Positions 55,251-57,751 of a stretch of DNA of 64,000 nt are shown here, piece by piece (position 1 is the stretch's first letter; every line of letters starts with the position of its first letter). Position numbers and translations under genes: made by a program. The stretch is from Methyloligella halotolerans (GTDB lineage: Bacteria; Pseudomonadota; Alphaproteobacteria; Rhizobiales; Methyloligellaceae). The notes under the pieces were generated by a model, which saw only the letters and a program-made list of their open reading frames with translations, made no database searches and was not told the DNA's origin. The stretch is taken from NCBI RefSeq assembly GCF_001708935.1, contig NZ_MASI01000005.1, positions 124,001 through 188,000 on the forward strand, given 5' to 3'.

Positions 55251-55519
55251 CTAGTGCAACCGAAGCTCGCCCTCGACGAAATCGAACTCCGTCGGCGAGA
55301 TCAGCCGCTTGTGTGCAACCCGAACCCGATAGAGCGGGCCTCGAGGTTTTCGTCCCAGAACGAAAGGAAATCCTTCAGCTTCGGGAAGCGCGGCGCCATA
55401 TCGTATTCCTGCCAGATGAAGGTCTGCAGCAAGCGGTTATGATCGGGCAGTCGGTACAGGATTTCGGCGGTGGTGAGGGAAAAGCCGGCGAGCTGGGAAA
55501 CGAGCGCATTGTCTGTCAT
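55251..55519 (-). CDS. Usg family protein (frameshifted here)
   Basis: ATG 55519 encodes ILYRLPDHNRLLQTFIWQEY and APRFPKLKDFLSFWDENLE, clear Usg family blocks. The frame breaks near 55338; adding one G (GAGGGCCCGCTC) restores GPLYRVRVAHKRLISPTEFD and a GELRLH end at 55251, about 89 residues, the normal length. Usg is a short conserved alphaproteobacterial protein, first noted near tRNA-pseudouridine and phosphoribosylanthranilate genes; its role is unknown. No signal peptide. Divergent from groES. Confidence 0.88.
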
Positions 55520-55611
55520 TCGATAGAGCCCCTGCCTTTGGTCTTGTAAGACTCAAAATTAAATCGTTCCGCCCACAGACTGTCCAGGATTTATTGAGAC
55601 AATTCAGGCAT

Positions 55612-55638
55612 GTAGCAGCCAACCCGCAAGGCTGCTAC
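55612..55638. promoter_or_regulatory. Second 9-N9-9 inverted repeat upstream of CIRCE
   Basis: GTAGCAGCC and GGCTGCTAC are perfect 9-bp arms separated by nine bases. The size and spacing equal those of CIRCE, whose left end is 31 bp downstream (about three helical turns), and six of nine bases of each arm match CIRCE. It may be a second, diverged HrcA operator. Confidence 0.55.
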
Positions 55639-55642
55639 CAAA

Positions 55643-55669
55643 TTAGCACTCGCCTATTGAAAGTGCTAA
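55643..55669 (+). promoter_or_regulatory. CIRCE operator (HrcA-binding site)
   Basis: TTAGCACTC, nine-base spacer, AAGTGCTAA matches the CIRCE consensus TTAGCACTC-N9-GAGTGCTAA with one mismatch in the right arm. It lies 84 bases upstream of the groES start. HrcA repressor binding here represses groESL until heat shock; no hrcA gene is in the window. Confidence 0.95.
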
Positions 55670-55752
55670 TAAGTGTCGCTAAATAGCCGCCGAGCGGGCC
55701 GCTATTTCGAGCACCCGATCAACGGGATAATTGGTTAGAGGAGAACAAAGCC

Positions 55753-56067
55753 ATGCAGTTTCGTCCGTTGCATGACCGCGTCGTCGTGCGCCGTCTTGAA
55801 GAAGGCGAAAAGACGAAGGGCGGAATTATCATTCCCGAAACGGCCAAGGAGAAGCCTCAGGAAGGCGAAGTCGTCGCTGTCGGCCCCGGCGCCCGCGACG
55901 AGAAAGGCCAGGTCCAGCCTCTTGAGGTGAAGGCCGGCGACCGCATCCTGTTCGGCAAATGGTCCGGCACGGAGGTCAAGATCGACGGCGAGGATCTGCT
56001 CATCATGAAAGAGAGCGACATTCTCGGCATCCTCGAGGGCACCTCTTCGGCAAAGCAGGCCGCGTAA
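55753..56067 (+). CDS. groES: Co-chaperonin GroES
   Basis: A 104-residue heptameric lid of the GroEL folding chamber. Blocks: [12 protein letters not shown], mobile loop [20 protein letters not shown] (20), [27 protein letters not shown] and [18 protein letters not shown] lies 9 bases upstream of ATG 55753. Controlled by CIRCE; groEL follows 43 bases later in the same operon. Confidence 0.99.

Positions 56068-56104: not shown

Positions 56105-57751
<1,647 letters not shown>

Follow-up and report, generated by a model that had tools for sequence, protein, structure and literature searches.

In this study, we describe two inverted repeats in the spacer between the divergent genes usg and groES, whose conservation, positions relative to the two promoters and association with usg and with the presence of HrcA were read directly from the DNA. 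The spacer probably controls both genes in heat shock, each through an HrcA operator of its own: site 2, a CIRCE at the groESL promoter, and site 1, a diverged CIRCE-like element on the usg side. The components, HrcA and CIRCE, are known; the operator variant and usg as a target are unreported in the open-licence literature searched, which held no description of this arrangement, whether as a tandem CIRCE or as HrcA with usg. Positions are those of the window, the whole 64-kb stretch of DNA that was analysed, and the features are as follows.

55301-55519, minus strand (start at 55519): usg (PF06233; profile match E=1.6e-27, stop codon from the sequence), divergent from groESL
55598-55606, minus strand: usg extended -10-like motif, with a conserved TG at 55606-55605; AAATCAG in the family (CTGATTT on the usg strand)
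55612-55638, no strand assigned: site 1, inverted repeat GTAGCAGCC-N9-GGCTGCTAC, putative usg-side diverged HrcA operator, based on family conservation and the class-wide usg element
55643-55669, no strand assigned: site 2, CIRCE, putative groESL-side HrcA operator, 17/18 to TTRGCACTC-N9-GAGTGCYAA
55657-55662, plus strand: groESL -35-like TTGAAA (CTTGAA in relatives), overlapping the CIRCE loop and right arm; CCTTGAAAGTGC conserved in the family
55679-55685, plus strand: groESL -10-like CTAAATA; TCTAnATA conserved in the family (column conservation)
55753-56067, plus strand: groES (PF00166; profile match)
56111-57751, plus strand: groEL (PF00118; profile match)

Structure and conservation of the two sites

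Site 1 is composed of the left arm GTAGCAGCC (55612-55620), the loop AACCCGCAA and the right arm GGCTGCTAC (55630-55638), and is the sole perfect 9-N9-9 repeat in the 64-kb window. Site 2 reads TTAGCACTC-GCCTATTGA-AAGTGCTAA and agrees with the CIRCE consensus TTAGCACTC-N9-GAGTGCTAA, for which a few mismatches are allowed, at 17 of 18 positions; it also has the context of a CIRCE, lying upstream of groESL (groES at 55753) in a genome with hrcA. Direct reading confirmed the first-pass annotation, which had reported a perfect 9-N9-9 repeat and a near-perfect CIRCE (one mismatch) at these coordinates, a start-to-start offset of 31 bp, and six of nine bases per arm common to site 1 and TTAGCACTC (TAGCA and the last C). 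The single mismatch of site 2 is accounted for by the conserved (C)TTGAA -35 box, which sits inside the CIRCE loop and right arm; CTTGA lies inside the CIRCE at further loci as well, including other families of the order. Site 1 has the CIRCE geometry, while its arms match TTAGCACTC/GAGTGCTAA at 12 of 18 positions in the window and at 12-15 across the family, and it is therefore termed CIRCE-like rather than CIRCE.

The genome carries a single copy of hrcA (E=6.3e-57) and two CIRCEs with at most three mismatches, both at groESL (site 2, and a second groESL on contig 4). The pattern TRGCAGC-N8..16-GCTGCYA gave one match in the whole genome, compared with five for the reversed control pattern. 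As side observations, the Usg encoded at 55301-55519 matches only positions 1-54 of the 80 in the profile, its C-terminus appearing shortened or diverged, and a third inverted repeat, AAATAGCCGCC-N5-GGCCGCTATTT (55681-55707), lies at the groESL -10/start region and is not evident in aligned relatives.

Alignment of groESL upstream regions from relatives, among which Methyloceanibacter marginalis is the nearest named one, showed both sites in all 16 usg-linked loci of the family, sister species included, with the offset kept at 31 bp (nine loci), 32 bp (six) or 34 bp (one). The family consensus reads AAATCAG-N4-TTGGCAGCA-N9-nAnTGCTnA on the usg side, followed by 4-7 nt to site 2, and TTGGCACTC-nnnCCTTGA-AAGTGCnAA, 8 nt and TCTAnATA on the groESL side. 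Across these 16 loci the information content is 1.77 and 1.37 bits per column in the two site-1 arms and 0.40 in the loop. A search for the two-element pattern with a gap allowing offsets of 26-56 bp matched 11 of the 30 family genomes, at offsets of 31, 32 and 34 bp only, and returned no control matches. Outside the family the strict pattern occurred in three genomes only (397 genomes of the order searched), all from one other family; in two of them groESL has a pair of near-perfect CIRCEs, and in one the pair adjoins usg. Site 1 is a real, conserved, regulatory element. Positions 7-8 of its left arm, GC, are invariant in the family and depart from CIRCE, which likely reflects an added constraint, from the usg promoter or from another factor.

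The usg-side element in Alphaproteobacteria and its relation to HrcA

Across the Alphaproteobacteria the element upstream of usg takes the form TTRGCAGC-N9..14-(GAG)TGCTGCYAA. A score of at least 13/16 for TTRGCAGC-N14-GCTGCYAA was obtained in 78 of 150 usg regions, 90-229 bp upstream of the usg start, and in 0.3% of first-order simulated shuffles. In most members of the class the spacing is 30 bp (8-N14-8), compared with 27 bp here, and the left arm contains CAGC in 55 of the 78 elements and CACT in 12.

The first-pass annotation had suggested a diverged second HrcA site. The suggestion survived the family alignment as far as the site itself is concerned, and HrcA rather than another regulator is favoured by two lines of evidence, co-occurrence and gradation into CIRCE. 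Among genomes with usg, the element was carried by 42 of 78 with HrcA and by 2 of 12 without (Fisher p=0.027; the test takes no account of phylogeny, which together with genome reduction confounds the association), a recognisable element thus being absent from 36 of the 78 genomes with both HrcA and usg. The two HrcA-less exceptions keep a CIRCE of 17-18/18 at groES, so that HrcA is probably missing from those draft genomes. Within the window's family, HrcA was found in 28 of 30 genomes, and Caulobacter vibrioides, used as a control, carries hrcA as well as usg. In several loci (L207, L210, L246, L265, L280 and L277) the usg element approaches the canonical CIRCE at the same position, with 16-17 of 18 matches, and at two loci of R. 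sophorae the usg-groESL spacer holds a single CIRCE-like element, TTAGCAGCC-N9-GAGTGCTAA. The most heat-inducible groESL of R. leguminosarum is reported to be CIRCE-regulated, as cited in PMC3989490, and we infer that the operator concerned corresponds to this R. sophorae element.

A different regulator of usg, recognising TTRGCAGC half-sites (8-N14-8 in most taxa) beside an ordinary groESL CIRCE, is a rather unlikely occupant of site 1. It would account for the non-CIRCE GC of the left arm, invariant in the family and dominant class-wide, and for the common 30-bp form with its own symmetry and two-turn half-site spacing. Against it, almost all genomes that carry the element have HrcA or CIRCE, and at this same position the element passes gradually into canonical CIRCE; in the family it has the CIRCE spacing of 9-N9-9, and one fixed dimer would hardly adapt to both 30 and 27 bp. 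A regulon of another factor in this genome was considered separately and rejected, since the palindrome was found once only.

Association of the element with usg

The element follows usg rather than groESL. It was present at usg in nine regions with no groES inside about 650 bp; an intervening gene parts usg, with its element, from groES in L018, L119 and L067, and in Mesorhizobium usg with the element is divergent from acs. Conversely, site 1 was missing from related groESL loci in which a CIRCE covers the -35 box and usg is absent. On the usg strand, a TG lies beyond the element at d=6,7 (T in 72/78, G in 68/78), beginning 5 nt past the element edge, and is followed by a degenerate A/T-rich hexamer fitting an extended -10. 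The TG at 55606-55605 likewise begins 5 nt past the edge of site 1, and the -10 hexamer here is weak. From this distance, the element would cover the -35 region of usg, a position suited to a repressor.

That site 1 is an auxiliary HrcA operator for groESL alone, its proximity to usg being incidental, is accordingly quite improbable. This reading builds on the second HrcA site at groESL suggested in the first-pass annotation, which had overlooked the probable role of the spacer for usg. It draws on R. sophorae and other loci with an RpoH-type promoter, where the only CIRCE-like element stops about 17 nt short of CTTGA, as site 1 does in the family, but the persistence of the element at usg without adjacent groES and its absence from usg-less groESL loci of the same promoter type speak against it. 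A related proposal built on the same 17-nt distance took site 1 for the ancestral CIRCE of rhizobial groESL and site 2 for a newcomer; it was dropped, being weakened by the element at usg without groES.

Heat-shock data are available for usg of M. loti (msl2390, near groEL), which is heat-induced (M=5.54; PMC3989490). Mesorhizobium jarvisii (L356, L365) has two usg paralogues, the groES-divergent copy without the element and the acs-divergent copy with it. The induced M. loti gene probably corresponds to the groES-side, element-less copy, and the expression datum therefore does not test the element and was set aside as a direct test: the M. loti data indicate that heat shock can induce usg but do not tie this response to the element.

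It is hardly credible that site 1 arose by chance, or that it serves as an RNA hairpin or terminator and not as an operator: one perfect 9-N9-9 repeat per 64 kb is plausible by chance (about 0.46 expected, and 0.0017 per 233-bp intergenic spacer), but a chance origin is excluded by the position in the spacer and by conservation in 16 related family loci and class-wide, while an RNA role is opposed by the absence of a T-run at site 1, by its location upstream of the groESL promoter elements and hence outside that transcript, and by the lack of any Rfam match over the gathering score in the region. A riboregulator was likewise discarded, as the groESL leader also folds no better than shuffles.

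Proposed model, spacing and related systems

In the model of two HrcA operators, one per gene, HrcA bound at site 2 would block RNA polymerase at the groESL -35 box on which the site is laid. Site 1, as the diverged CIRCE of usg, would lie over the usg -35 region just upstream of the extended -10-like promoter, where bound HrcA would block usg. In the family the sites are 31-34 bp, or about three turns, apart and would share one DNA face, so that HrcA dimers could touch. Upon heat shock HrcA would leave both sites, and usg and groESL would be induced jointly. HrcA binding and repression of usg are predicted here from the sequence, and cooperative binding at the two sites is possible. We also put forward, tentatively, a wider version: HrcA may control usg generally in Alphaproteobacteria by way of a separate operator class (TTRGCAGC...GAGTGCTGCYAA), and HrcA dimers seated on usg and groESL operators in helical phase may repress both genes, either cooperatively or through a small loop.

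The distances from the usg element to the groESL CIRCE are suggestive of helical phasing. In the first 33 loci they were strongly non-uniform at 11.0 bp (p=2.8e-5) and less so at 10.5 bp (p=0.013); the same test was not significant on 23 held-out loci (p=0.2 and 0.6). The strongest period between 5 and 20 bp in the pooled loci was 11.1, the evidence for phasing being mixed when loci were pooled or phylogeny-reduced. Differences in offset within families, on which shared ancestry has less influence, gave p=0.03 at 10.5 bp and 0.002 at 11.0 bp. The most regular-looking offsets are the short ones (31-36, 44-46, 64-67 and 75-78 bp).

The known CIRCE/HrcA operators, found at groESL and dnaK operons, are matched here by the presence of hrcA, by site 2, itself a CIRCE, and by the 9-N9-9 geometry and TRGCA/TGCYA cores of site 1. 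Site 1 departs from them in its diverged inner arm and in its place at the promoter of the divergent gene usg; in most other alphaproteobacteria, the corresponding element is spaced 30 bp rather than 27. At groESL of Campylobacter jejuni, HrcA binds cooperatively with HspR as partner (PMC7464140), and there, as here, two repressor sites near one groESL promoter are close enough for contact, whereas the second site here looks to be of the HrcA type and shared with a divergent gene. The groESL operons of rhizobia such as R. leguminosarum and M. loti, with a single upstream CIRCE and an RpoH-type promoter (PMC3989490), resemble the present locus in the usg-groESL neighbourhood of R. sophorae and in a CIRCE-like element 17 nt before CTTGA, but have one element where the window has two, the second overlapping the -35 box.

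If the model is correct, the repressor of the chaperonin genes would also act on usg, a small conserved gene whose function is unknown, which would point to a role of usg in protein quality control. The natural series of spacings, from 31 to 156 bp, offers material for testing HrcA dimer cooperation or DNA looping. Searches with a strict CIRCE consensus overlook putative operators in which an arm has diverged and the spacing is 27 to 30 bp.

Other arrangements were also observed. At Rhodospirillales-type loci (L055, L073, L074, L070 and similar), CIRCE-like elements occur in pairs 64-67 bp apart, one on either side of the groESL promoter, with the upstream member towards usg, and a Bradyrhizobium locus (L108) has three CIRCE-like elements between usg and groES. 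At L125:1400-1760 (G152 contig 1, near 4340770), a CTTGAAA promoter and a tandem CIRCE-like pair occur together with usg, but no groES lies downstream; a GC-rich hairpin followed by TTTCT lies about 100 nt further on. This locus may be a relic groESL promoter or the source of an orphan, HrcA-controlled short transcript.
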